From contig CACBYG010000006.1 in assembly GCA_902543535.1 (NCBI GenBank), forward strand, positions 1-64,000: DNA of 64,000 nucleotides, written 5' to 3'. Positions within the stretch are counted from its first letter, which is position 1; each line of letters opens with the position of its first letter. Both the position numbers and the translations under genes were made by a program. Source of the DNA: an uncultured Pelagibacteraceae bacterium (GTDB lineage: Bacteria; Pseudomonadota; Alphaproteobacteria; Pelagibacterales; Pelagibacteraceae). Below the pieces are notes generated by a model. The model saw only the letters and a program-made list of their open reading frames with translations. It searched no databases and had not been told where the DNA came from. Below are positions 1 to 63,427 of the stretch, piece after piece.

Positions 1-1210
1 AAATCCTAAAGATAAAGAAAATTTAGAACTAAAAATTATTTTTTTAAAATTAAAATTATCAGTATTAGTAAAATTAAAAAAATATTTTATTAATAAAAAA
101 GAGAGTATTGGAAATATTACAAAAACAAGGCTTTCTAAACTCCATAAAACGCTAAGAATAAAAGATAAATAAAATATTATTATTTTACTTATATTTTCTT
201 TATCCTCATTTATAAGGTCAATGAACAATAGGATAGTTATTAGAGAGGGTAAAAATCTAAAAACCGATGACGACGGGATGAACATGGCTCCAGATAAATT
301 TTCATACCCATAATTTCCAAAAATTAAAAAAGATAAAAATAATGTTAATAAAGTATAATTTAATTTTACTAATTTAAAAACTTTCAATGAAAATAAAAAA
401 TAAAAGATTAAAAAAAAAGCAAATTATTATAAACATAAAAACTTTGTTTGAATCAATGTTGGTAAAGTTACTTAATTTATTAATGAATAATATATTTAGA
501 TATCCATATTGACTCACAGCATCTTCTAATAATCTAAAATCTTCACCTATTGAATTAATTGGACCCAAAAACCAACTGTAGTGAAATGCATCTTTAGGTG
601 CTGACAATAAAAAAACTTTAATAATAATTAAAAAGATAATTGTTGAAAGAAAAATATCAATCCATTGATGAAATTTGTTGAGTAAGATATTTAGTAAAAC
701 AAATATTATTGACAAAGCTGAAAGAATTAAAAAAACAGATAAAGTCGAGTAGCTAACTTGAAAGAGTATTCCGCTAAATCCTAGTGATAAAAAAGATATT
801 AGTAAAAAATTTTTAGTTTCTAAATTGTTAGATTTTAATAAACTTTCATTTTCAAGTAAAAATATGATTGGAATAACTAAAACAAGATGAAAAACCAGAA
901 ATATAGCTGTATCAGAATAACTTCTAATTATTTCTAGATTCCAAACAATGTATATAAATATGAATGTAAATAATAATAAAATACTATCTGAAAAAAGCTT
1001 AGATGAATCATTAATATGCTTATTTGAGAATAATAAATATATTAGTTCAATTGATAAAACACATGTAATTAAAAATATTTTGTCCGATAATTCTTCATTA
1101 TGTATGAATCCTTTTGATATTGTATATGCTAAAAAAAATAAAAAAAAATTTAAAACAATAAATTTATTAATTTGATTTTCACTTAATATCCTATCTAATT
1201 TTAAATCCAT
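1..1210 (-). pseudogene. Polytopic membrane protein, apparently frameshifted; continues beyond the window edge
   Basis: The first 278 codons (start ATG at 1210) encode an almost entirely hydrophobic protein with many predicted membrane helices, ending at a stop at 374-376. In the neighbouring frame the coding continues to base 1 with the same composition and no stop, including residues reading GNYGYENLSGAMFIPSSS. A T9 run on the coding strand (A9 at 410-418) lies just before the break; one T fewer there joins both parts into a single frame. The simplest reading is one gene with a 1-nt indel, either a real mutation, a sequencing error or a slippage site. The gene starts 4 nt after the nadK stop, so it is probably cotranscribed with nadK. 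I do not recognise the family; large membrane glycosyltransferases and polysaccharide proteins look similar, but no motif supports that. Confidence 0.6.
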
Positions 1211-1214
1211 TAAA

Positions 1215-1985
1215 TTAGGAGGTTTCTTTTCTTAACTGTTCGATTTTTATTTTTTTTTGTAAGCTTCTACTTTTATCATATAGAAGATTAAACTTTATTT
1301 TGTTATTAGTTTTAACTGTAATTGATTTTGCATTTCTTACCTCTAGATTATCAGCAACTGCACTTATAGGTCTTTTTATAGGGTTTAAATTAGTGATAGT
1401 AATTTTTGATTTATCGTTAACAATTTTCCCCTTCCATCTTCTGGGTCTAAATGGGCTTATTGGAGAAATAGATAGTTTTTTTGAATTCAAACTTAATATT
1501 GGTCCATGAACTGACAAGTTATAAGCAGTACTTCCTGCAGGAGTTGAAACTAGAACACCATCCGAAACTAAGTTTTTTATTATCTGTTTTGAACCCTGTT
1601 TGATCGATAGTGAGGCAGCTTGCCTACTCTGTCTCAGAACAGAAACTTCATTAATAGCGAGTGATTTTTTTATTTTATTATTCTTGTTTTTAACAGTCAT
1701 TTCTAATGGTGAAATAGAAATCATATTGGCTTTTTTTAGATTTTTAATAATATTTTTTGAGGAAAATATATTCATTAAAAAACCGTAATTTCCTGAATTA
1801 ATTCCATAAAAGTATTTTTTTGAATTCTTATTTTTTTTAAGCGTTTGAAGCATAAAACCATCACCACCTATTACAATTATAAGGTTTGATTTTTTAAATT
1901 GATTAGCTTCAATTTTTTTTGTGAGTAAAGATTTAATTTTAAGAGATTTTTTATTTTTATCTGAAATAATTTGGAGTTTACTCAT
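1215..1985 (-). CDS. nadK: NAD kinase
   Basis: ATP-dependent phosphorylation of NAD to NADP in the cytoplasm. The 256-residue protein has the family signature GGDG at residues 40-43, an Asn-Glu pair at 112-113 within AINEVSVLRQ, and the conserved DGVLVSTPAGSTAY segment at 142-155. Its length fits the shorter alphaproteobacterial NadK form. The ATG at 1983-1985 lies directly beside the tRNA-Leu 3' end, leaving almost no room for a separate promoter, so read-through from the tRNA promoter or a promoter inside the tRNA gene is likely. A membrane-protein gene follows after 4 nt. Identification is secure. Confidence 0.95.
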   Translation of the reverse strand: MSKLQIISDKNKKSLKIKSLLTKKIEANQFKKSNLIIVIGGDGFMLQTLKKNKNSKKYFYGINSGNYGFLMNIFSSKNIIKNLKKANMISISPLEMTVKNKNNKIKKSLAINEVSVLRQSRQAASLSIKQGSKQIIKNLVSDGVLVSTPAGSTAYNLSVHGPILSLNSKKLSISPISPFRPRRWKGKIVNDKSKITITNLNPIKRPISAVADNLEVRNAKSITVKTNNKIKFNLLYDKSRSLQKKIKIEQLRKETS

Positions 1986-1989
1986 TTAG

Positions 1990-2075
1990 TGGTGCCCTCG
2001 GCCAGACTCGAACTGGCACTCCGCAAGCGGCAAGGATTTTAAGTCCTTTGTGTCTACCAATTTCACCACGAGGGC
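1990..2075 (-). tRNA. tRNA-Leu (anticodon UAA)
   Basis: The reverse strand folds as a long-variable-arm leucine tRNA. The 7-bp acceptor stem is GCCCTCG paired with CGAGGGC, the D-arm region reads TGGTGAAATTGGTAGACAC, the anticodon stem-loop is GGACT-TAA-AATCC, the T-loop contains GTTCGAGTC, and the 3' CCA is encoded. It is the left attachment site of the adjacent island: bases 2037-2075, the 5' half, form part of the 87-bp direct repeat found again at 9131-9217. Confidence 0.95.
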
Positions 2076-2123
2076 ATTAATGAATTTCATGAGTGTTTAT
2101 GCCAATATTTATAATTGAACAAG
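2037..2123. repeat. Left 87-bp direct repeat (attL-like)
   Basis: Identical base for base to 9131-9217. It covers 39 nt of the tRNA-Leu 5' half and 48 nt of leader upstream of the tRNA. Beyond the perfect block the similarity continues imperfectly for about 16 more bases (left agtaataagtaaaatt, right cctaatatgtaaaatt). This suggests that the homology once extended further and has begun to drift. Confidence 0.9.
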
Positions 2124-2157
2124 AGTAATAAGTAAAATTTTTTTATTTTATTTTCCT

Positions 2158-2200
2158 ATGTACATGTTGTGTACAGGTTATCCCATAAAATCTTATATTA
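2158..2200. repeat. Paired GTACAGGTT-type motif, island site 1
   Basis: GTACATGTT at 2160-2168 and GTACAGGTT at 2171-2179 form a direct pair with an 11-bp period. They are followed by two 10-bp units, TCCCATAAAA and TCTTATATTA, at 2181-2200. The same paired motif with the same 11-bp period occurs at 3562-3581 and 8985-9004. Likely recombinase or excisionase binding sites; the function is inferred. Confidence 0.6.
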
Positions 2201-2207
2201 ATAATCC

Positions 2208-3503
2208 TTAAAATTTTCCTTTATCTATAGCTTTCAAAACAAGAGACTTGTAATTGTAGTTTCGGTGAACTGCATGGGTATAAACAATTCGATTATCATC
2301 AAAATTAATTAACAACCCAATCCCACCATATCCATCCATACCCATCACCGCATCACGTATTCCAGGATAATTGGTGTGAAAAAAACCTGCATAAGATTTT
2401 GAGTAACCATCACCAAACCCTATATCTTGGCCCTTTGAAATACTATTTGCGTAAACATCTTTGAGATAATTTCCTATGCATGTGCCACTGTTCCAATCAT
2501 TCAAGATAGCTATGCCAATTCTTAATGTATCGTAACGTGTTGCTTTAAAATTTGATTGAATAACACCCTTTGACTCAATTCCAGTACCATTAAACTCTAG
2601 CCTTCCAGCAAGACCAACATGATCTTTTAGGACGTTATTAATAAATGAAGAAAATTTATGTCCAGTTTTAAATGAAATATAATTCAAAGCTACATTGGGA
2701 GAAAATTGCGAATAGTTAAAACGTTTTTTTCCTGGTTTGGTATTTGCTAATTCTTTTTTTGCAATGCTAGCAATAGTTAAATCACCTATGTCTCTTCCTG
2801 AACTTAATATATGATCCATAATATATTTTTGATCACCCGTACTGGCGTTGATAACATCTTGCATTGTTGCTGTTTCAAGTAATGTTCCTTTCATGATTGG
2901 CCAATCAGCCAAAGTTGATGATAAAGAATTAATGTAACCTTTACAGATCGCATGACCCATGAGGTAACCACCTAAACTTTTTCCTAAAGACATGCTGTAT
3001 ATCATCGTGTCATTATCTATTAAATCTCCAAATCTTTCAGGGTGAGATAGCTGATCAATAACAATCTCTCCATCTTCATACATTAAATAACTAATTAGAC
3101 CTGTAGACTGCATCTTCTTAACAATCTTTTTTATGATCTTTGGTTCTTTTTGAAGATTAAATTTTAAAGCAAGGGGTTGAGAAGATGGTTTGGTATAAAA
3201 CTGATTACTTCTCCCTCTCTTGTTATAAGCAAGAAAATGGTATCTCAATGTCTCAAGATTTGGTCGTTTATAATCGCTAGGAATTTGTCTATTTTTCCAT
3301 GTTTTAACTTTCGATGATTTCAAAGAATTTTGTTTATTTTCAGATGTTTTAACTTTCGATGATTTCAAAGAATTTAGTTCGTCACACTTATTGTAATACC
3401 AATGATTACTATATTTGGTTAATGATTTACATTTTTCACTGTCTGCAAAAGCGTTACTACTCAACAACAAACCCAGAACAACGATCCCTAAAAGTTTTTT
3501 CAC
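2208..3503 (-). CDS. Secreted serine hydrolase of the beta-lactamase/DD-peptidase fold
   Basis: This 431-residue protein begins with a clear signal peptide (residues 1-20, ending in Ala-Phe-Ala) and should act in the periplasm or outside the cell. The nucleophile motif S-x-x-K is Ser172-Leu-Gly-Lys175. The second motif, usually Tyr-x-Asn, appears as Tyr264-Ser-Gln266, so the Asn is replaced. A Gly-rich stretch near the C terminus (MDGYGGIG) is in the place of the KTG/HxG element. Residues about 46-75 hold a 15-residue tandem duplication. This fold includes class C beta-lactamases, esterases and D-amino-acid peptidases; the substrate cannot be told from sequence. It is the leftmost island gene and is flanked on both sides by GTACAGGTT pairs, so it may have arrived as its own module. 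Confidence 0.75.
   Translation of the reverse strand: MKKLLGIVVLGLLLSSNAFADSEKCKSLTKYSNHWYYNKCDELNSLKSSKVKTSENKQNSLKSSKVKTWKNRQIPSDYKRPNLETLRYHFLAYNKRGRSNQFYTKPSSQPLALKFNLQKEPKIIKKIVKKMQSTGLISYLMYEDGEIVIDQLSHPERFGDLIDNDTMIYSMSLGKSLGGYLMGHAICKGYINSLSSTLADWPIMKGTLLETATMQDVINASTGDQKYIMDHILSSGRDIGDLTIASIAKKELANTKPGKKRFNYSQFSPNVALNYISFKTGHKFSSFINNVLKDHVGLAGRLEFNGTGIESKGVIQSNFKATRYDTLRIGIAILNDWNSGTCIGNYLKDVYANSISKGQDIGFGDGYSKSYAGFFHTNYPGIRDAVMGMDGYGGIGLLINFDDNRIVYTHAVHRNYNYKSLVLKAIDKGKF
3299..3375. repeat. 45-bp tandem duplication inside the serine hydrolase gene
   Basis: Bases 3301-3330 are repeated exactly at 3346-3375, giving a 45-bp period that keeps the reading frame. The result is two copies of LKSSKVKT, each with a 7-residue variable tail, between the signal peptide and the catalytic domain. 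This looks like a recent slippage or recombination duplication in a Lys/Ser-rich linker. Confidence 0.85.
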
Positions 3504-3561
3504 AATCCAAGACTAACAAATCCTGAACCGTAAGTCTATTTGCTAAAATCTATCTATCTAT

Positions 3562-3602
3562 GTACAGGTTTCGTACAGGTTGTCCTACAGAGTCCTATAA
3601 GT
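3562..3602. repeat. Paired GTACAGGTT motif, island site 2 (internal)
   Basis: GTACAGGTT occurs at 3562-3570 and 3573-3581 (11-bp period), followed by 10-bp units TCCTACAGAG and TCCTATAAGT at 3583-3602. It sits between the serine hydrolase gene and the 112-residue gene and overlaps the latter's stop codon. An end-like site in the middle of the island suggests two modules joined together. Confidence 0.6.
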
Positions 3603-3933
3603 CATCATTGTTCCATGTAAACAAATCTGCATCAAATTCTATATTTCTGAATTTTAATAATTTCTTATATTTTTCTAACCTCTCTTCTTTTTTAAAATTC
3701 TTAAGATAGATAAGTATATCGTCATAACTTAATCCATTAAGTTTATCTTTCTTTACATCGACATATTCCTCGTATTCCATACCACATATTGCAAATCCTT
3801 TTTTGGGATCTATATGCTCTGAATAACTAATCGAGTCTTCAGTTTCTTTAAGAATATCGTACCAATGTGCTACTTGGTTTTCAGAATCAAAAATATAATC
3901 TCTTCTATAATCAAACAGTTCTAGTTGTTCCAT
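3595..3933 (-). CDS. Small acidic protein of unknown function, downstream of hsdR
   Basis: I do not recognise this 112-residue protein. It is charged, with no membrane segment or signal peptide. The N terminus reads MEQLELFDY; residues 3-7, QLELF, match the pentapeptide consensus QL(S/D)LF known for proteins that bind the DNA polymerase sliding clamp. The C-terminal half is helical and Lys/Glu-rich. It lies 78 nt downstream of the hsdR stop on the same strand, so it may be the last gene of the restriction operon or an accessory gene. Roles such as restriction control or replication coupling are guesses from position and the motif only. Confidence 0.6.
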   Translation of the reverse strand: MEQLELFDYRRDYIFDSENQVAHWYDILKETEDSISYSEHIDPKKGFAICGMEYEEYVDVKKDKLNGLSYDDILIYLKNFKKEERLEKYKKLLKFRNIEFDADLFTWNNDDL

Positions 3934-4011
3934 ATTTTGGGGGTTGTTAAAAATTCAGAAATGAACCTTAACAATTATTAATATAGTTAATAATAGTGGC
4001 AGAATTTTGAG

Positions 4012-6342
4012 TTAGTAAAGATGTTTTTGAAAATCTATAAAGGTATTTCTTATATTATCTGCATCACCTAATACTTTTTGACCATCGTGTAATGATTTAT
4101 ACTTCAGCTTTATAAGGCTACTTAATCTATTAATATCAAGTTCCTCGACACCACCCTCAACGTATTTGCTTAAGACAAAATCTATAAACTCTTTTTGTTT
4201 TTCATTTAAATCTTTGTAAATTTCATCTTCTGCATTAGCTACTCTAGTAGCTCTTTGAATAGGTTTTTTACTATAAGCAATATGCTCTAAAACATCAAAG
4301 ATATCACTATCTTCAGCTTCTATTAACGTTTGAATAGATTTTAAATCTTGTTTAGTGAATCCATTATCTTCAAGTTTTTTAAGTAGTTCATTCCTAGTTA
4401 TAGGAGATGACCATAGTTCTCTTAATTCTTCCTCACTCTTTAAGATTTCTGGTAAAGTTATCGTATTAAATAGTTTTTTAATAAACTCTTCTGCTGAAAC
4501 TGGTATTCCATGAAAGTAAAACAAAGAAGTAGACATGGACTTAATTGATAGTTCTTTTCCTTCAGCTAATTTAATTATGATTTTTTCTCTTGGTGGTTTA
4601 GGCTCTGGTGGTTCTTCACCACCTCCTTCTTCACCTGGTTCAAAAGGTTTTTCTGGTTTTTCTTCTGGTGGTTCCTCAGGTATTGGTTCACCATCCCATT
4701 CAGGGTCAGCAAAGTTTGCTGAAGCACCTACAAAATCAACAACAGTAAAATAAAACTTATCTTCAAATAATCTTGTTCCTCTTCCAATTATTTGCTTAAA
4801 CTCAATCATATTGTTAACTGGTCTCATCAATACAATATTTCTAATATTCAATGCATCAACACCAGTACTAAGTTTTTGACTAGTAGTTAAAATTGTTGGA
4901 AGTGTTTTTTCATTATCCTGAAACTGTCTAAGATGAGTATCACCTGTTGTTGTGTCTTTAGCGGTAACCCTTACGCAATAATCAGCAGGAGGATTAACAG
5001 ACTCTTGATTAATTAAATCTCTAACCATTCCAGCGTGAGCAATACTTGCACAGAAAACTAAGGTTTTTTCTTTAGGGTTAATACTATTAAGCATTAACTG
5101 AACTCTCTTACGCTCTCTACCTTCGATAACAATTTTCTTATTCATATCTTTTTCTTCAAACACTTCACCTTCAGAGATTTCTTCTTCACCAGCTAAAATA
5201 TCATCGTCACCTGTGTAAACATATTCATCCATAGTTGTTTGAATTCTCTTAACTTTAAATGGTGTTAAGAAACCATCTTTAATCCCATCTTTTAATGAGT
5301 AAGTATAAACAGGTTCACCAAAGTAATTATACGTATCAGCATTAAATTTTCTTTTAGGTGTAGCTGTTAGACCAATTTGTACAGCAGATGAAAAATAGTC
5401 CATTATTCCTCTCCATCTACTCTCATCTTTAGCTCCACCTCTATGACACTCATCAATTATAACTAAATCAAAGAAGTCAGCAGGGTATTGACCAAAGTAA
5501 GGTTTATTTTCTGGCCCCGACATAAAGCTTTGGAATATTGTAAAGAAAACTGAACCGTTAGTTGGAACATGACCTTTGTCTTTAACATCTTTAGGAGTAA
5601 TTCTAACTAAAGCGTTCTCATCAAAGGCACTAAAAGAATTAAAAGCTTGGTTAGCTAAAATGTTTCTATCAGCTAAGAACAATATTCTAGGAATTCTTTT
5701 ACCATCTCTTTGCATATTCCATCTGGATTGAAATAATTTCCAAGCAATGTGAAATGCAATTACAGTTTTACCTGTACCTGTTGCAAGAGTTAAAAGTATT
5801 CTTTGTTGCTTGTCGGCAATTGCATCTAATGCATTATTGATTGCTATTTCTTGATAGTATCTTGGTTCCTTTGTTCCTCTAAAAGGTTCAAAGTTAATAG
5901 CATCAAACTTACTAGACCATTCGTTTTTATCTTTAAAAGTTTTAATCCACAACTCCTCTGGAGATGGGAACTTATCCACTTCACTTTCTGATGTAATAAA
6001 CATTTCCCCTTTTTCATTTCTAGAATAATTAATCTCGTAAATCTTATGACCATTTGTAGAGTAAGAAGTGTATATCTTTAGTTTTTGTGCATAATCTTTT
6101 GCTTGGCTAATACCTTCACTTACTGGTAAATCCTCTTTTTTAGCCTCAATTACTGCTAACTTTCTATTCTTATAAACTAGAACATAATCAGCTCTAATAA
6201 TACCAGCTCGAATTCCACCTGGTTTGATTTCACCATTAGTAATTTTAAATTCCCTTCTAACAACGCTGCCTTCAACTATGCCCCATCCAGCTTCTTTTAC
6301 TTTAGGGTCAATTAATTCTGCTATTGTTTCTGCTTCATTCAT
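4012..6342 (-). CDS. hsdR: Type I restriction enzyme, R (endonuclease/translocase) subunit
   Basis: Motor and nuclease subunit of a type I restriction complex, which translocates unmodified DNA and cleaves at a distance. The 776-residue protein has an N-terminal PD-(D/E)xK nuclease (Asp52, Glu66-x-Lys68), then a superfamily 2 helicase core: Walker A ATGTGKT at 187-193, DECH at 297-300, LTATPKR at about 325-331, and QIIGRGTRL at 517-525. Residues about 546-586 form a Pro/Glu/Gly-rich linker before a helical C-terminal domain that should dock onto the methylase. All catalytic residues seen are intact. Its ATG overlaps the hsdS stop (ATGA), indicating translational coupling. Confidence 0.93.
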   Translation of the reverse strand: MNEAETIAELIDPKVKEAGWGIVEGSVVRREFKITNGEIKPGGIRAGIIRADYVLVYKNRKLAVIEAKKEDLPVSEGISQAKDYAQKLKIYTSYSTNGHKIYEINYSRNEKGEMFITSESEVDKFPSPEELWIKTFKDKNEWSSKFDAINFEPFRGTKEPRYYQEIAINNALDAIADKQQRILLTLATGTGKTVIAFHIAWKLFQSRWNMQRDGKRIPRILFLADRNILANQAFNSFSAFDENALVRITPKDVKDKGHVPTNGSVFFTIFQSFMSGPENKPYFGQYPADFFDLVIIDECHRGGAKDESRWRGIMDYFSSAVQIGLTATPKRKFNADTYNYFGEPVYTYSLKDGIKDGFLTPFKVKRIQTTMDEYVYTGDDDILAGEEEISEGEVFEEKDMNKKIVIEGRERKRVQLMLNSINPKEKTLVFCASIAHAGMVRDLINQESVNPPADYCVRVTAKDTTTGDTHLRQFQDNEKTLPTILTTSQKLSTGVDALNIRNIVLMRPVNNMIEFKQIIGRGTRLFEDKFYFTVVDFVGASANFADPEWDGEPIPEEPPEEKPEKPFEPGEEGGGEEPPEPKPPREKIIIKLAEGKELSIKSMSTSLFYFHGIPVSAEEFIKKLFNTITLPEILKSEEELRELWSSPITRNELLKKLEDNGFTKQDLKSIQTLIEAEDSDIFDVLEHIAYSKKPIQRATRVANAEDEIYKDLNEKQKEFIDFVLSKYVEGGVEELDINRLSSLIKLKYKSLHDGQKVLGDADNIRNTFIDFQKHLY

Positions 6343-7493
6343 ACAACTTCACTTGGTTGAATTTTTTGTTTAAGAATTGCTAATTTTAAAGCATTCAAAT
6401 TTGAAATCTTTTTTTTATAATTATTCGCAAGTAAATTTACTTTAGATTTTACATCTGAAATTTTTTTAATAAATATCTGTTGTGTTTCTAATTTTTTGGG
6501 ATAAGAAAAAATGAATTCCTCAATATCTTTCTTAGTGATAGCTTGTCTTGTTGCGCCTGCACTGTTTCCAATTTCAAGTAATTTTTTCTTATTGACTCGA
6601 GCTATCAATCCATAAGCCAATAGTTGTGGGCTTAATATAGTTCTATCTGTACGAATAATTGAAACGTGCTGGTTAACACGAGCTGGGAGCGACTCACTTG
6701 GAACAAGTGTACACCTTGCTACAGAAGCACCAGTTATATTTAACAATACATCATTCTTTTGAACCTCAACATTTGCTAATTTTTTTGATTGAAATTCGTC
6801 AATTTTAGCAAGTTCTTTCCAAGAAAATCTCATATCATGAACATTCATACTTCTTATCAATGAAATTCCCTGTTCTTTGTAAGATGCCTTTCCTCCTCTT
6901 GGAGTTGCTCCGCTTCCAATTTTAGATGTAATTTCTTTAAGTCGTGACTCAATCCAACCCTCACCTTTTTGTTCAAAAATCTGTGACAAAATATTTGTAT
7001 AAATTTTATCTGCACCTGCCACTTGTTGTTGAGATGATTTAACCATGTTATCAATTTTTTCAAAAGCAATATTAAGTTTAGCCACAATGCGTTTTTGCTC
7101 TGATAATGAGTTTGGGAACGATATTTTTATCAACCTTAATTTTTTCATGTCGAGATTTCTTTGGGCTGTGCCTCTTCCTAAATCATAAATTAGGTCGTTT
7201 ATACCAAGAATAATTAAATCCAAATATTCTTGTAATAATTCATTATTCTTTGGAGACAATGTTAGTCCACTGTCATTTAGAAAAAAGTCACCTTCAACAA
7301 AGCGGGTACATTTTTGTGACATAGCAAAACGAGAGATAACAACTCTATTGTTTCGGTTTGTTTTATCTAGATAAAAAGTTTTTCCTCCACCTCCATAAAC
7401 TGGATATATTTCTCCTCCATCTTTTTTTCTTGTAACTCTAGTTCCGTATTCAATGTTGCATAATTCATCTATTGTTGATGATATGATTTTCAT
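6339..7493 (-). CDS. hsdS: Type I restriction enzyme, specificity subunit
   Basis: DNA-recognition subunit of the type I complex. The 384-residue protein has the expected layout of two target-recognition domains, each followed by a long conserved helix. The first helix region starts near SEQKRIVAKL (about residue 117) and the second lies at the Lys-rich C terminus. The second domain opens with GSGATPRGGKASY, a typical type I TRD entry. It overlaps hsdM by 4 nt upstream and hsdR by 4 nt downstream. The target sequence cannot be derived from sequence alone. The gene is full length, so the system is probably active. Confidence 0.9.
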   Translation of the reverse strand: MKIISSTIDELCNIEYGTRVTRKKDGGEIYPVYGGGGKTFYLDKTNRNNRVVISRFAMSQKCTRFVEGDFFLNDSGLTLSPKNNELLQEYLDLIILGINDLIYDLGRGTAQRNLDMKKLRLIKISFPNSLSEQKRIVAKLNIAFEKIDNMVKSSQQQVAGADKIYTNILSQIFEQKGEGWIESRLKEITSKIGSGATPRGGKASYKEQGISLIRSMNVHDMRFSWKELAKIDEFQSKKLANVEVQKNDVLLNITGASVARCTLVPSESLPARVNQHVSIIRTDRTILSPQLLAYGLIARVNKKKLLEIGNSAGATRQAITKKDIEEFIFSYPKKLETQQIFIKKISDVKSKVNLLANNYKKKISNLNALKLAILKQKIQPSEVV

Positions 7494-8947
7494 AAAGTTT
7501 CTTTTATTGATTTTATTATTTTACGAGATTGATTTTCAAGTTCTTCTATTTCAGAAATAATTTGTTCTGGTGTTCTCTCATCTATATCATCAACAATATT
7601 GGGATTTGAGACTCCTAAATCTAAAGTTTTACTATTTATTTTCTCAATATCTAAAGACCAGCTATTGTGACTAAGTTTTTGTGTTTTGTTTAAGTTTATA
7701 AAATCTTTTAAATCATTTTCATTTAAAGGGTTTGTTTTTCCCATGCTTCTTTCAACATTAAGTTGATAGTACCAAATTTTCTTAGTGGGGTTTCCTTTTT
7801 CAAAAAATAAAACTACAGTTTTAACCCCTGTTCCCAGAAAAGCGCCTTTCGGTAAGTCAAGTATTGTAAATAAATTACATTCTTCAATTAACTGTCTTCT
7901 AAGGGCAACACTTGCATTATCGTTGTTACTTAAGAAGGTATTTTTAATAACAACCCCACACCTTCCACCAACTTTAAGTTTCTTAATAAAATGCTGTAAA
8001 AATAAATATGAGGTTTCACTTGTTCTTATCGGAAAGTTTTCTTGAATATGCTTTTTTTCAGTTTTTCCACCAAAAGGAGGATTTGCTAAAATAACATCTA
8101 CTCTATCTTTATTTTGAATTTCTTGGATATTATCTTCAAGTGTATTTTTACGAATAATGTTAGGACTTTCTATTCCATGAAGTATCATATTCATTAAGCC
8201 TATAACGTAAGCTAATGATATTTTTTCAATTCCATAAAATGATTTATTTTGAAGAGTTTTGAGTTCACTAGTTGTGAGTGATTTTGATTGACTCATGTAT
8301 TCATAAGCTTCAATTAAAAATCCTGCACTCCCAACGGCTCCATCGTAAATCGTTTCACCAATTTTTGGATCAATTACTTGAATAATGGATTTAATTAATG
8401 CTCTTGGTGTATAATACTCTCCACCATTACGACCAGAGTTTCCCATATTTTTGATTTTTTCTTCATACAATGCACTAAGTTCATGTTTTTGCTCACTACT
8501 TTTAAATTGAAGTTTATCAACCGCATCAACAACTTCTCTGATAGAATATCCGTCAGATAATTTATTTTTTATCTCATGAAAAATTTCACCGATTTTGTAT
8601 TCGAGTGTATTTGTGTTTTCTGCATTATTTCTAAATGATTTTAAATATGGAAATAATTTATCATCAATAAAGCTTTTTAAATCTGGTCCTGTAAGTGTTT
8701 TGTTAAAGTCTACTTTTCCAGCTTTGTCTTTGACAACAGCCCATTTAGACCACTGAAATTCTTTTTTCAATGTAGGAATGAATTGTTTATTTTCTAATTT
8801 AGCTTTTGTTTCTTTATCTTTTTCATAATCATCTAACCATTTAAGGAATAGTATCCATGAAGATTGCTCAGCATAATCAAGCTCAGTACTACAACCATCA
8901 TCCTCCCTGAATGCATTGTCTATATTTTTAAAAGTTTGCTCGAACAT
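7490..8947 (-). CDS. hsdM: Type I restriction enzyme, adenine-N6 methyltransferase subunit
   Basis: Modification subunit that transfers a methyl group from S-adenosylmethionine to adenine in the target. In 485 residues it shows an N-terminal helical HsdM domain (about 1-130), EYYTPR at 177-182, the AdoMet-binding segment DGAVGSAGF at 202-210 and the catalytic NPPF at 289-292. The AdoMet segment differs from the common DPACGSGGF form, but to my recollection this variant also occurs in intact type I methylases. It is the first gene of the hsdM-hsdS-hsdR operon. The paired GTACAGGTT motif lies 38-57 bp upstream of its start codon, where it might also influence transcription. Confidence 0.93.
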   Translation of the reverse strand: MFEQTFKNIDNAFREDDGCSTELDYAEQSSWILFLKWLDDYEKDKETKAKLENKQFIPTLKKEFQWSKWAVVKDKAGKVDFNKTLTGPDLKSFIDDKLFPYLKSFRNNAENTNTLEYKIGEIFHEIKNKLSDGYSIREVVDAVDKLQFKSSEQKHELSALYEEKIKNMGNSGRNGGEYYTPRALIKSIIQVIDPKIGETIYDGAVGSAGFLIEAYEYMSQSKSLTTSELKTLQNKSFYGIEKISLAYVIGLMNMILHGIESPNIIRKNTLEDNIQEIQNKDRVDVILANPPFGGKTEKKHIQENFPIRTSETSYLFLQHFIKKLKVGGRCGVVIKNTFLSNNDNASVALRRQLIEECNLFTILDLPKGAFLGTGVKTVVLFFEKGNPTKKIWYYQLNVERSMGKTNPLNENDLKDFINLNKTQKLSHNSWSLDIEKINSKTLDLGVSNPNIVDDIDERTPEQIISEIEELENQSRKIIKSIKETL

Positions 8948-8984
8948 ATTATCTAAGGATTTAATATTTAAATTATCTCATCAT

Positions 8985-9004
8985 GTACAGGTTATGTACA
9001 GGTT
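8985..9004. repeat. Paired GTACAGGTT motif, island site 3
   Basis: GTACAGGTT at 8985-8993 and again at 8996-9004, an 11-bp period, in the same orientation as the copies at 2160-2179 and 3562-3581. It lies just upstream of hsdM and 127 bp inside the right direct repeat. Confidence 0.65.
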
Positions 9005-9062
9005 TGAAATAATTAATTATTTCTTATCTTTTAATATTAATTAAAAACTATCTAAAAATTAT

Positions 9063-9112
9063 GAGATTTTATAGGATGTTATAGACTACCTTGGACTTCT
9101 ATGGACTGACTC
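9063..9112. repeat. Five phased 10-bp units at the island right end
   Basis: Consecutive 10-bp units read GAGATTTTAT, AGGATGTTAT, AGACTACCTT, GGACTTCTAT and GGACTGACTC, with a loose consensus (A/G)GA-C/T-T-T-N-TAT. On the opposite strand these resemble the TCCCATAAAA/TCTTATATTA units at 2181-2200. The arrays therefore point in opposite directions at the two island ends. Helical phasing suggests cooperative protein binding. Confidence 0.5.
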
Positions 9113-9122
9113 ACTTGTGAAT

Positions 9123-9169
9123 CCCTCGGCTTTTAAGTCCTTTGTGTCTACCAATTTCACCACGAGGGC
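9123..9169 (-). pseudogene. tRNA-Leu remnant at the right island end
   Basis: Bases 9131-9169 equal the 5' half of tRNA-Leu up to and including the anticodon loop. The next 8 bases, 9123-9130 (GCCGAGGG on the minus strand), match the 3' acceptor-side sequence of the intact tRNA. The roughly 33 nt between, covering the variable arm and T arm, are absent, so no functional tRNA can be made. Either this is the chromosomal half left by integration or a full duplicate that suffered an internal deletion. Confidence 0.65.
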
Positions 9170-9217
9170 ATTAATGAATTTCATGAGTGTTTATGCCAAT
9201 ATTTATAATTGAACAAG
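9131..9217. repeat. Right 87-bp direct repeat (attR-like)
   Basis: Perfect copy of 2037-2123, in the same orientation, 7,094 bp away. See the left copy. Confidence 0.9.
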
Positions 9218-9267
9218 CCTAATATGTAAAATTGTTATTTAATTGAATATTTTATAAACATCTTTAA

Positions 9268-10074
9268 ATGGAAAAAGCATTCAAAGTTTTGATATTTACC
9301 GATCTTGATGGCTCACTTCTTCATAGAGATACTTTCAAATTTGATGAAATAAAAGACTATATAAAACAATTAATATCTAAGGGTATTTTCATAATTCCTA
9401 ACACAAGTAAAACGGAAAAAGAAATTTTAGAGTTTAATAATGAGCTAGGTTCAAGTTTACCTTATATTTGTGAAAATGGAGCAGCTATTAAAGGTTTAGA
9501 GCTACTAAATTCTAATTTACCTAAAGAATTAATTCTAAGTAAAGAGAAAAATAATATTATAAAAATATTTGAAAAGTCAGTTCCAATAGATTTACAAAGT
9601 AAATGCAAATGGTTGTCTAACATGGATAAGAAAAAACAAAGCTCTATTTTTGGTTTAAAAGATGAACAACTTAAAATGGCTTTAGATCGTAAATATACAA
9701 TTCCTTTTATATTTGATGGAATTAAAAGTGAAAAAAATGAGTTATTCAAAATTGTCAAAAAAAAAGGTTTAGCTTTACAGGAAGGTGGGAGAGTTATTAA
9801 TTTAACTGATAAAGTAAATAAATCTAAAGCACTTCAGGTATTTGTCAGATTTTTTAAAAAAAATAATAAAAATGTAAAAACAATCGCGGTTGGTGATAAT
9901 TACAATGATTTAGATATGCTTAAAGTTAGTGATTTTCCTTGCTTAGTATTCAATGATAAATTTACATTAGATCAAATCCCTATAGATGATTTAATAACAA
10001 CAAATAAGCCATCACCTGAGGGCTGGGCAGATGTGATCAAAATGGCCCTAGTTAAAATAAATAAAAATTACTAA
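9268..10074 (+). CDS. HAD-family phosphatase, probable glucosyl-/mannosyl-3-phosphoglycerate phosphatase
   Basis: Expected to remove the phosphate from glucosyl-3-phosphoglycerate, giving the compatible solute glucosylglycerate. The 268-residue cytoplasmic protein has HAD motif I DLDGS with Asp12 and Asp14, a Thr in the motif II region, and motif IV GDNYND at 209-214. The layout fits subclass IIB, to which mannosyl-3-phosphoglycerate phosphatases belong. The glycosyltransferase that would make its substrate starts 8 nt downstream, which is the main reason for the specific call. The island right repeat ends 50 bp before the start, so the promoter borders the island junction. Glucose versus mannose specificity is not decided by the sequence. 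Confidence 0.8.
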   Translation: MEKAFKVLIFTDLDGSLLHRDTFKFDEIKDYIKQLISKGIFIIPNTSKTEKEILEFNNELGSSLPYICENGAAIKGLELLNSNLPKELILSKEKNNIIKIFEKSVPIDLQSKCKWLSNMDKKKQSSIFGLKDEQLKMALDRKYTIPFIFDGIKSEKNELFKIVKKKGLALQEGGRVINLTDKVNKSKALQVFVRFFKKNNKNVKTIAVGDNYNDLDMLKVSDFPCLVFNDKFTLDQIPIDDLITTNKPSPEGWADVIKMALVKINKNY

Positions 10075-14064: not shown

Positions 14065-15247
14065 AAATTTAATTTTTTTTGGATTAATATCATCTTTTTT
14101 TTTGATTTTCTTAGTTTTCATATGGAAAATATTAGCAACTTTACAAGGTTTAAATATTCAAAACTTTAATTTACAAATAGTATTTATTTTTGGTCTCCTA
14201 ATATCATTTGCTAACCTAAGAATAGGCAATAAAATTAAAATTTTTTACAAATCAATTATTTTTTCTCTAATTTTTGTAATCTGTGATGGTTACATTATTC
14301 AAAAGTTACCGTTGTGGTATAATGTTGGTATTTTTTTGGTTTTATATTTTTTTATTAATAAAATAAATAAATATAGTTTTGAAGATCTAAAGCAGGAACA
14401 TTCTACACAAGTAATCTTTTTTGACTTTTTAACTTTATTTGGTATTTTATTTTTTTCATTTGTAATTCTTTTCCCTTTTTACATGATGTTGATAACAAGT
14501 TTTAAAACCCAAATAGCTTTATTGGTTAACCCTTTAGACTTCAGTATAAATTTTACTCAAGATTTAAGAGACTTATTTAATTCTTATTTTGTAATATTTA
14601 AATCTTATAAATTCGGTAAATATATTATAACTAGTTCAATTGTTTCTATAGGTACTGTATTTATAACTCTTTTTTTTGCAATACCAGCAGCATATGCAAT
14701 AGCTAGATTAAATTTTATTGGCAAGACATTTTTATCAACATCAATATTAATAATTTATATGTTTCCAGCGATAGTATTGGTAATTCCTCTATATACAATT
14801 TTTAGTCAACTTGGCCTGAGAAATTCTATATGGGGTTTATTAATTGTTTATACAGCAACAACGCTCCCAGTAGCGATCTACATGTTGCAAGGTTATTTCA
14901 AGAGTATCCCAAAGGAATTAGAGGAGGCAGCAATAATGGATAAACTTAGTTGGTTTGGAATAATTTCTAAAATTATTGTTCCATTAAGTATTCCTGCGAT
15001 TTCTTCTGTGGCATTATACGTATTTATGATAGCTTGGAACGAATTTTTATTTTCTTTAATGTTTCTTGATAATCCAAACTCATTTACTCTTTCAAGAGCT
15101 ATACAATATTTAAGTGGTGACGCAGAAACACCTAGGCAATATTTAATGGCTGGGTCAGTGATTGTGACTTTGCCTGTTCTGTTTATCTTTGTTTATTTTG
15201 AAAAATATCTAGTTAGTGGTCTTACTGCAGGGAGTGTCAAAGGTTGA
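14054..15247 (+). CDS. ABC sugar transporter permease 2 (MalG-like) with extra N-terminal helices
   Basis: Second membrane subunit of the uptake system. The last about 270 residues are a standard MalG-type core with six helices and the EAA loop KELEEAAIMDKL followed by IIVPLSIPA. The first about 125 residues add roughly four hydrophobic segments, not usual in MalG proteins, which are about 280 residues; this one has 397. It overlaps permease 1 by 11 nt and the hydrolase by 4 nt, so the three genes should be translated together. No ATP-binding subunit is encoded here; a shared ATPase elsewhere is required. Confidence 0.88.
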   Translation: MKTKNLIFFGLISSFFLIFLVFIWKILATLQGLNIQNFNLQIVFIFGLLISFANLRIGNKIKIFYKSIIFSLIFVICDGYIIQKLPLWYNVGIFLVLYFFINKINKYSFEDLKQEHSTQVIFFDFLTLFGILFFSFVILFPFYMMLITSFKTQIALLVNPLDFSINFTQDLRDLFNSYFVIFKSYKFGKYIITSSIVSIGTVFITLFFAIPAAYAIARLNFIGKTFLSTSILIIYMFPAIVLVIPLYTIFSQLGLRNSIWGLLIVYTATTLPVAIYMLQGYFKSIPKELEEAAIMDKLSWFGIISKIIVPLSIPAISSVALYVFMIAWNEFLFSLMFLDNPNSFTLSRAIQYLSGDAETPRQYLMAGSVIVTLPVLFIFVYFEKYLVSGLTAGSVKG

Positions 15248-62221: not shown

Positions 62222-63427
62222 TTATGTATATTGTGGATTTAGCTTACTTCTGACTAAATAAAGCAAAATTATTGAGGTCAAAATATATGCACCTGAAATA
62301 ACAGCTATTTGTTCAATTGAAAAATTGAAATCTATTAGAATCCCAAATAAAGCAGTTCCAAAAGCAGTAGCAAATACCATTAATGCTGTTGTGAGAGCTT
62401 TAATAGATCCAATATGTTTAACACCATAAATTTCAGCCCATGTAGATGATCCCAAAACATTAGCTAAGCCGTTAGTAACACCTAAAAAACCAAAGAAAAT
62501 AAATGATGAGACTTCATTATCAAAAAAGAACAGAACTCCTGTTGCAAAAAAAAGTGGAACATTCATATAAATCAGTAATTTTCTACTGGAAAATTTATCA
62601 ATTAAAAAACCTGAAATAAACAGAGTCACCACAGTTGTTATTGAGTAAACCATAAAAGATTGTGCAATTACATAAGGCCCCCAGTCTTTTGAGCTAGTAA
62701 TGAAGGATTGATAAACAAAAGTACCTGTTGCAATCCATGGTGCAGCTAGCATTGTCATACAAACAATATAAAATCTATAATCACTCAAAACTTCTACCCT
62801 TTTCCATTGTTTAATTTCTTTAGTAATGACTTCTTTTTTATTTTCTTCTCTTGTATCTAATTTAATTTCTTTGACTAAGAAATACGAAGTGATTGGTAAA
62901 ACTACTATTACTAAAATAGAAATAAAAATCCATATATCTCTCCACCCAATAAATGTTAATAAAAAAACAATTAGGACTGGTAAGACAAATTCTGCTAAAG
63001 ACAAACCTAACCAACCTGTACTTAAAGCTCTACCTCTACTTTTTTCAAAAAAACGAGAAATTGTTGTTGTTGCTGTATGGCTTGATAGACCTTGACCAGA
63101 TAATCGCATCAAAAAAATTCCAATGAATAAAAAAATTACAGAAGAAATTTTAGAAAATATAAAACAAGAAATTGATAAAAATACTATTACATATGAGGCA
63201 AATTTTAATATATCTACATCATCTATTTTTTTCCCTATCCAGACTAAAACAACACTACTTAATAAAGTTGCAGAGGCATAAATTGAGCCAAATTGTCCGT
63301 GGGTTATTGATAAGGCTTCTCTAATACTAGAATTAAATAGACCAAGAAAAAAACTCTGTCCAAAACTTGAAAAAAATGTAAAAATAAAAGCAAATATTAT
63401 TACTTTTAAACTTAAAATTTTAAACAT
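62222..63427 (-). CDS. Major facilitator superfamily transporter
   Basis: A 401-residue protein with about 12 helices. The loop between helices 2 and 3 reads GKKIDDVDILK, and RFFEKSRGRALSTGWLGLSLAE in the first half is typical of OFA/NNP-like MFS carriers of organic anions. The central cytoplasmic loop is basic. It starts 11 bp from the divergent dehydrogenase gene, so the promoters must overlap coding sequence. The substrate is unknown; a small monocarboxylate or oxalate-like acid is one guess from the fold group. Confidence 0.85.
   Translation of the reverse strand: MFKILSLKVIIFAFIFTFFSSFGQSFFLGLFNSSIREALSITHGQFGSIYASATLLSSVVLVWIGKKIDDVDILKFASYVIVFLSISCFIFSKISSVIFLFIGIFLMRLSGQGLSSHTATTTISRFFEKSRGRALSTGWLGLSLAEFVLPVLIVFLLTFIGWRDIWIFISILVIVVLPITSYFLVKEIKLDTREENKKEVITKEIKQWKRVEVLSDYRFYIVCMTMLAAPWIATGTFVYQSFITSSKDWGPYVIAQSFMVYSITTVVTLFISGFLIDKFSSRKLLIYMNVPLFFATGVLFFFDNEVSSFIFFGFLGVTNGLANVLGSSTWAEIYGVKHIGSIKALTTALMVFATAFGTALFGILIDFNFSIEQIAVISGAYILTSIILLYLVRSKLNPQYT

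Follow-up and report, generated by a model that had tools for sequence, protein, structure and literature searches.

SAR11 bacteria are among the most abundant in the sea, and how their integrase-less tRNA islands move has so far not been clear. Arm-binding domains and arm sites are well known from tyrosine integrases of the lambda, Tn916 and P4/SXT types, and phage satellites are familiar as the PICI, P4 and PICMI types. The island analyzed here lies beside a tRNA-Leu(TAA) gene in a 64,000-nucleotide stretch of DNA (the window: contig CACBYG010000006.1, positions 1 to 64,000 of the forward strand) from an uncultured Pelagibacteraceae bacterium (assembly GCA_902543535.1, a metagenome-assembled genome, MAG, of 1.11 Mb in 21 contigs, 79.8% complete), and both of its ends carry a short word repeated at 11-bp spacing. 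We put at about 0.82 the probability that these word pairs are arm-type sites of a trans-acting tyrosine integrase on a tRNA-borne cassette element that carries no integrase itself.

According to passages of PMC8138268, the arm-binding domain is highly variable between members of the integrase family. Known arm-type sites, like those proposed here, are short sequences repeated on either side of a tRNA core, and the satellite integrases at our locus likewise have a predicted β-β-β-α N-terminal domain and a gene beside attP. In contrast to the known arm-type sites, the word here differs between otherwise similar elements, many of which lack an integrase of the family. Gene cassettes with tRNA fragments, in additive flexible genomic islands, are described in passages on the Actinomarinales (PMC7771536) and the Methylophilaceae (PMC10872708); the SAR11 cassettes also accumulate at tRNAs with repeated tRNA pieces, whereas the arm sites, words and helper proposed here do not figure in those passages, and the term ‘integrase’ is absent from the main text of PMC7771536. 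Tycheposons, as outlined in PMC10872708, are elements of streamlined marine bacteria that carry cargo between tRNA borders and have tyrosine recombinases. By that outline, the window element has the tRNA border and the cargo, while a recombinase was not found in it; most elements here, in contrast to tycheposons, lack an integrase of the family searched, which sits on rare separate elements. Helper-dependent elements and integron cassette arrays without an integrase (CALINs) are described in passages of PMC11389934, and our cassettes would similarly rely on an integrase supplied in trans and also form arrays, mostly in one orientation; unlike those of CALINs, their cores are tRNA halves rather than attC sites, for which no search was run, and arm words are proposed to give the specificity. 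The terms integrase, cassette and additive do not occur in the SAR11 paper PMC7318151, and a literature search confined to papers open without subscription found no account of variable paired words, or of word and arm-domain matching, at tRNA islands.

The features that frame the island in the window are as follows.

1990..2075 (−): tRNA-Leu(TAA), the attachment gene (ARAGORN), with the island on its 5' side
2034..2142: left copy of a 109-nt direct repeat (repeat search), comprising the tRNA 5' half from the anticodon loop plus upstream DNA
2160..2179 (+): left word pair, GTACATGTT-gt-GTACAGGTT (pattern scan), as far from the core as the left pairs of relatives (mostly 84–85 bp)
3562..3581 (+): internal word pair, GTACAGGTT-tc-GTACAGGTT, at the boundary of two cassettes and without a tRNA core
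8985..9004 (+): right word pair, GTACAGGTT-at-GTACAGGTT, with the right core 146 bp further on
9128..9236: second copy of the 109-nt repeat, at the right end (repeat search), a displaced tRNA 5' half

The two repeat copies that bound the island are 95% identical, and the core common to other islands (2037-2075) lies inside the left one. At up to three mismatches, GTACAGGTTnnGTACAGGTT matches the window three times, always on the plus strand (starts 2160, 3562 and 8985), against a mean of 0.03 and a maximum of 1 in 100 shuffles; half-site starts are 11 bp apart in all three pairs, and the first half of the left pair, GTACATGTT, has one mismatch. An earlier note on this DNA, made from its letters alone, had pointed out these pairs at 2160-2179, 3562-3581 and 8985-9004, with one orientation and an 11-bp period, and is confirmed in this. 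Its further remark that no copies were noticed outside the island holds for pairs, since the incomplete MAG contains only the same three at up to three mismatches, and fails for the single word: an unpaired GTACAGGTT occurs at 63013-63021 (−), which is unremarkable because shuffles give an expectation of 0.27 copies of this 9-mer in the whole window. The reversed pattern, as a control, likewise had three matches in the MAG at up to three mismatches and none at up to one. A longer similarity of 38 nt encloses the window pairs (repeat family D2, 74–76% identity). A LexA/SOS-box reading, based on a likeness of GTAC-N7-GTAC to the alpha-proteobacterial LexA box for which no search was made, was dropped because the words vary while the period stays.

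Comparison with relatives used the flank gene at 9268-10074 as a marker of the locus, which is present in 98 of 300 genomes of the genus (own included). Taken by score, 38 of the remaining 97 genomes supplied the locus (with G367 skipped), and AG-439-G13 (G200) and AG-325-P23 (G201) were added; L and G numbers are labels of fetched stretches or loci and of genomes. These assemblies are MAGs and single-cell genomes and fragmentary, and our counts ignore kinship among them, so that related elements are not independent; pair-family assignment, acceptance of internal pairs and the naming of small proteins as helix-turn-helix (HTH) were done by eye from the printed sequence. An intact tRNA-Leu(TAA) is present in 32 of the 41 locus sequences (window included), and five of these 32 loci are empty (L108, L109, L111, L113, L115). 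Among the 27 non-empty loci, 16 have a pair with at least 7/9 agreement at an offset of 82–84 from the tRNA end, and four have one at another offset; three of the latter (L116, L120, L137) probably belong to other element families, and the AT-rich fourth (L132) is perhaps a chance match. The word itself differs between elements at the locus (TGTGCTGGT, TGTGCAAGT, GGTACTAGT, TTCCGAGTT, ACGTCTAGT and others), with halves that agree wholly or nearly. Directly after the left pair, relatives have a fairly constant block (consensus ATCCTATAAAATCCTATA), and at the right end the order is pair, a zone of GACTA repeats (∼10 bp), then the tRNA half.

The constant block also permits a census beyond this locus: RTCCTATAAARTCCTAT was found in 58 of 300 genus genomes, with no match for the reversed control, and at 42 of 61 non-redundant sites (two more lie at sequence edges) the block is immediately preceded by a pair with 7/9 agreement or better. 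A period of 11 bp is seen in 52 of 83 left-type ends and one of 12 bp in 12, with 0–1 ends at every other period from 6 to 26; shuffled upstream DNA gives a mean of 0.11 and at most 2. The 55 ends with a good pair yielded 33 distinct words, whose halves agree in 33, 33, 32 and 33 cases at positions −9, −8, −7 and −5 (expected 10.5–15.9) and at chance level at −2 and −1; the word that is read is therefore about 8 bp long, with the pattern NNNNCNRG, followed by T. Twenty-five complete elements lie between two cores, and three of these elements have an integrase hidden Markov model (HMM) match. Sixteen elements have a pair of at least 7/9 at both ends and entered the end-to-end test; the nine dropped were L116 and L120 (other att family) and, for a weak pair at one end, L110, L124, L137, one element each of L129 and L194, L195 and L196. 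Left and right words are 0.90 identical within an element against 0.63 in other combinations, a value reached in none of 20,000 permutations. The right pair stands 146.2 ± 1.4 bp from the core (n = 17) and the left mostly 84–85 bp (n = 25, range 72–89, by best window), whereas the first gene lies anywhere between 26 and 874 bp from the right pair (n = 17); as with arm-type sites, short repeated sites flank the core on both sides at fixed distance. In viral contigs, the constant motif was found in 16 stretches, none with a visible adjoining pair.

The same tRNA core occurs in 23 viral stretches. An exact 8-bp pair with a spacing of 11 or 12 bp lies near it in seven; the other 16 lack one, so the tRNA site as such does not entail a pair. 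Among these 16, several have an open reading frame (ORF) of 282–297 amino acids (aa) beside the core, which we take for a putative different integrase. Four of the 23 (L138, L153, L157, L159; 7.8–13.8 kb) encode an integrase of 545–549 aa, next to small genes taken for HTH by eye and primase-like genes, with a RusA-type gene in three; L138 has the core at both ends. Pfam and PHROGs support the integrase and primase of L138 and L195 (the latter also with a RusA-like gene), while Pfam named none of the small proteins scanned beside the integrase. In holding integrase, primase-like and RusA-like genes on 7.7–10.2 kb, the integrase carriers resemble phage satellites, from which the window element differs in lacking all three. 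The integrase family is rare: at E 0.001 it has matches in 10 of the 399 genomes of the genus, five with near-full-length copies, and, by profile, in four of 297 genomes of the order, all of the window's genus. Deposited phages contained no match to the integrase, and a search of viral contigs with the L195 integrase found no relative. Host copies stand at tRNA-Leu(TAA) in three genomes (G120, G249, G283) and next to a fragment of tRNA-Ser(TGA) in G407, and the words in their arms are TGTGCTGGT, GTTTCTAGT, GTGTGGAAC and about TCTCAAGTT; that of the L195 integrase is TGTGCTGG. Sites in the integrase's own attP arms were found in the satellites L138, L153, L159, L195 and L196 and in the viral L154 and L156, with the observation for L157 confined to the left arm. 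When six distinct satellite words were compared with 27 cassette words at −9 to −3 (7 of the 33 left out as out of register, the L101 word added, L194 not compared), three recurred: those of L195, of L196 and, with a different first base, of L157.

The words change together with the part of the integrase that is predicted to bind them. L138 and L159 share a word, and their predicted arm-binding sheets are 39/42 identical (Fisher 0.73); between L138 and L153 the word has changed, and the sheet is 29/42 identical, whereas the middle part stays at 94% and the catalytic part at 93% (Fisher 8e-6). L157 and L196, with similar words, agree at 30/42 sheet positions and at only 121/235 in the middle part. 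The clearest pair is viral: the 515-aa integrases of L154 and L156 are identical at 401/426 positions after the sheet, 21/42 within it and 26/44 before it (Fisher 8e-13), and their words, GGGCAACT and GGGTAACT, differ in all four paired copies, two per side of the core. With 153 of 170 bp identical in the left arm, words included (164 of 200 bp in the right), the left-arm flanks are nearly unchanged, and because the left-arm copies lie across the core from the integrase gene, linkage alone explains this case poorly. In a partial Mantel test on seven integrases, word distance correlates with sheet given the rest of the protein (r = 0.59, p = 0.0016) and hardly with the rest given the sheet (r = 0.13, p = 0.30); the uncertain register of its word kept L194 out of this set. 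An AlphaFold2 model of the L195 integrase (9 sequences; mean predicted local distance difference test score 77, predicted template-modelling score, pTM, 0.43) has N-terminal strands followed by a helix. Its best PDB matches in Foldseek are tyrosine recombinases (Tn1549 integrase, 3.9e-6), and its weaker ones, the arm-binding domain structures 3jtz, 3ju0 and 3rmp (probability 0.99–1.00, E 0.12–0.24), represent the HPI and HAI7 integrase arm-binding domains and a P4-like integrase entry on attP recognition.

From these comparisons we infer binding, mobilization in trans and the identity of the helper. Each pair consists of two direct copies of a word of ∼8 bp, one DNA turn apart, which the N-terminal arm-binding domain of a tyrosine integrase would bind side by side; the crossover of this enzyme would take place at a core within that half of tRNA-Leu(TAA) which includes the anticodon loop. 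The island is an integrase-less element of two cassettes, one with the 431-aa gene and one with the 112-aa gene and HsdR/S/M. It would be mobilized by an integrase whose arm-binding domain reads GTACAGGT and which a helper could supply, for example a satellite-like element of the kind found at tRNA-Leu(TAA) in related genomes and viral contigs. Where the earlier note had left cooperative binding to a recombinase, excisionase or regulator, its recombinase version is well supported, because paired sites occur in the arms of integrase elements at the same tRNA and the words change with the predicted arm-binding sheet. Two features go beyond that note: the word is element-specific, and the island lacks an integrase of its own.

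Several observations weigh against this explanation. No pair stands beside the tRNA in 7 of the 27 non-empty loci, and 19 of the 61 constant-motif sites lack a clean 11-bp pair. An integrase reading GTACAGGT was not found (0 matches in the own MAG, which is 79.8% complete); a looser viral scan for GTACAGGT returned only L146 and L014. Three of the six satellite words have no cassette match, and the right arms of three satellites (the first element of L194, L195, L196) failed the 11-bp test of the cassettes. The Mantel set comprises seven integrases, three of them close relatives. The right-arm copies of L138 and L153 are 12 bp apart and not all equal; their 8-bp words differ by one base where the sheets differ by 13 residues, so that the sheet may also drift for other reasons. 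Satellite right-arm copies lie inside or beside the integrase gene, and linked exchange could therefore explain part of the association. Finally, the arm-domain fold matches have E values of 0.12–0.24, from a model with pTM 0.43.

Between the ends of the island lie the following features.

2180..2197 (+): variant of the constant left-end motif (consensus RTCCTATAAARTCCTAT), with a 10-bp repeat (sequence); inverted counterpart at 9060-9077 (I6)
2208..3503 (−): 431-aa protein, the ‘serine hydrolase’ of the earlier note (ORF; shared with the AG-325-P23 cassette); no Pfam family at 1e-3
3582..3599 (+): left-end type flank (GTCCTACAGAGTCCTATA) after the internal pair (sequence), where the second cassette is taken to begin
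3595..3933 (−): 112-aa protein, no family found in Pfam, PADLOC and further family searches
4012..6342 (−): type I restriction subunit, HsdR (Pfam, PADLOC)
6339..7493 (−): type I specificity subunit, HsdS (Pfam, PADLOC)
7490..8947 (−): type I methyltransferase, HsdM (Pfam, PADLOC)
9060..9127 (+): conserved right-end zone with GACTA-type repeats at a ∼10-bp period, a candidate second class of sites (block in other islands, by eye)

The five main genes all lie on the minus strand. An integrase HMM had no match in the element, a Pfam scan of its five main proteins named no integrase, and integrase family searches of the own genome gave 0 matches (MAG 79.8% complete); the element is neither an autonomous island with its own integrase nor, its main genes being the 431-aa and 112-aa genes and HsdR/S/M, a phage satellite with an integrase and primase/replication or packaging genes. 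A direct repeat of 45 nt (87%; D4) lies within the 431-aa gene at 3279-3368. The 21 elements outside integrase-bearing loci, the window's among them, have 49 ORFs of at least 100 aa, and 46 of these are directed toward the tRNA (binomial 7e-11). The cargo is diverse, with type IIG restriction enzymes, type I specificity parts, peptidases, transport parts, MORN repeats and others. Elements stand in tandem in L099, L107, L121, L129 and L194, with different words in L107, L121 and L194; near the tandem array of L194, a row of similar pilin-like ORFs (reading FTLIELLVVVAIIGILAAVGVVAYNGYT) occupies 419-4075. Internal pairs without a core were accepted by eye in three cases (window 3562, AG-325-P23, L194) from a longer list, the rest of which look like chance or ends with unrecognized cores; their word is that of the own element in the window and AG-325-P23 and a near one in L194.

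The 431-aa cassette recurs in AG-325-P23 with 99.4% identity over 1405 bp. This homology begins at 2177, inside the left pair, beyond which the word is ACGTCTAGT, and reaches the end of the contig at the right pair, where the contig end is its limit and a right break is not seen; sharing between pairs implies that the stretch between two pairs behaves as a unit. Homologous recombination within the end sequence common to both elements may account for the exchange of the word at AG-325-P23, as may some other process. The earlier note's idea that the island was built from two modules with a shared end gains support from the left-end type flank at the internal pair and from this cassette match; on the best reading, the internal pair is the end of a formerly separate, second cassette. 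The single-cell contig L024 (positions 1-20; AG-325-P23), like L061 and L063, ends exactly at a GTACAGGTTATGTACAGGTT pair, which may reflect a fork in the assembly where an end sequence is repeated.

It is unlikely that the words are sites of a helper's excisionase or directionality factor (AlpA- or winged-helix-like) instead of its integrase. Directionality factors also bind attP arms, and the satellites do encode small putative HTH proteins, so named by eye, beside the integrase; between L138 and L153, such proteins are 89/97 and 105/116 identical overall, against 29/42 in the integrase sheet. Operators or promoter parts would agree with the position of the window pairs, each of which is upstream of a minus-strand transcript (tRNA-Leu, the 431-aa gene, hsdM), with the 46 of 49 ORFs directed toward the tRNA and with 13 of 17 first-gene starts 26–77 bp from the right pair, yet we consider them very improbable: the distance from pair to core is constant and that from pair to gene is not, the word tracks the element rather than the type of gene, empty sites keep the tRNA without a pair, and the Pfam overview of the cassettes (best 25 of 43 families) contains no recurrent regulator family.

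We give equally little credence to the pairs being crossover sites of an integron-like cassette junction. Such sites would accommodate the start of the AG-325-P23 homology inside the left pair, although homologous recombination in shared end sequence gives the same break, and also the internal pairs without a tRNA core, of which only three were accepted, by eye; the pair, however, is a direct and not an inverted repeat, and complete elements end in the tRNA-half core repeat, the crossover expected of a tyrosine integrase. Least probable of all is a functionless repeat family like the 11-bp unit scattered in Rhodobacteraceae, whose genomes hold many GTACAGGTT pairs: there one fixed unit appears on many contigs, whereas SAR11 has words that differ from one element to the next, match within an element and lie at its ends, and it is the end-to-end agreement of the word that disfavors this explanation.

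If the pairs are arm-type sites of a borrowed integrase, their wider meaning concerns how helpers and cassettes find each other. Most small SAR11 cassettes appear to carry no integrase, and the doubled end word appears to mark which borrowed enzyme they can use. We give even odds to an address code, in which 8-bp arm words and integrase sheets diversify together, are exchanged between helpers and decide which helper can mobilize which integrase-less cassette; SAR11 populations would then have a common pool of cassettes, divided by word over at least three attachment sites. Provided that the words are integrase docking sites, a cassette's helper would be predictable from 8 bp of its end and borders could be called by machine, while natural pairs of word and arm domain would be material for learning how arm-binding domains choose DNA. 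Ends of the same architecture are seen at tRNA-Ser(TGA) in L193 (near 14300-14800, with an integrase-bearing element beside this tRNA), L221, L236, L237, L241 and L266. In a third attachment class, a 75-aa gene or its 5' region (MNKENASKLWKIIQEAGDYL...) precedes the cassettes (L248 from G233, L218, L235, L242, L256, L263, L267); L248 has three such ends in a row, and the class shares the constant motif, many members with word pairs. L146, a virus-called contig of 5.1 kb, has a cassette end: it starts with a tRNA-Leu core, GTACAGGT and the constant motif, followed by phage-like genes, one of them PhoH-like (genes named by eye).

The exact word proved a poor guide to this family. The search for it in SAR11 genomes that the earlier note had proposed found few other copies; what recurs, at tRNA islands and also one protein-coding site, is the architecture in general. 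In 200 relatives, the exact word occurs only in the own genome and in G044, with a one-mismatch match in G113 inside an rpoC-like gene. As a family marker it was rejected, as only two (L024, L055) of 46 genome-contig stretches have Pelagibacteraceae in their titles and many belong to scattered repeats of Rhodobacteraceae. In that family, dispersed 11-bp runs such as GTGTACAGGTTGTGTACAGGTTGTG were seen in several genomes among L016-L059, many in strain IMCC 34051, and are apparently unrelated to tRNA islands; a Clostridia MAG (L037, L042) has arrays of the GTACAGGTT unit with an 11-bp period.

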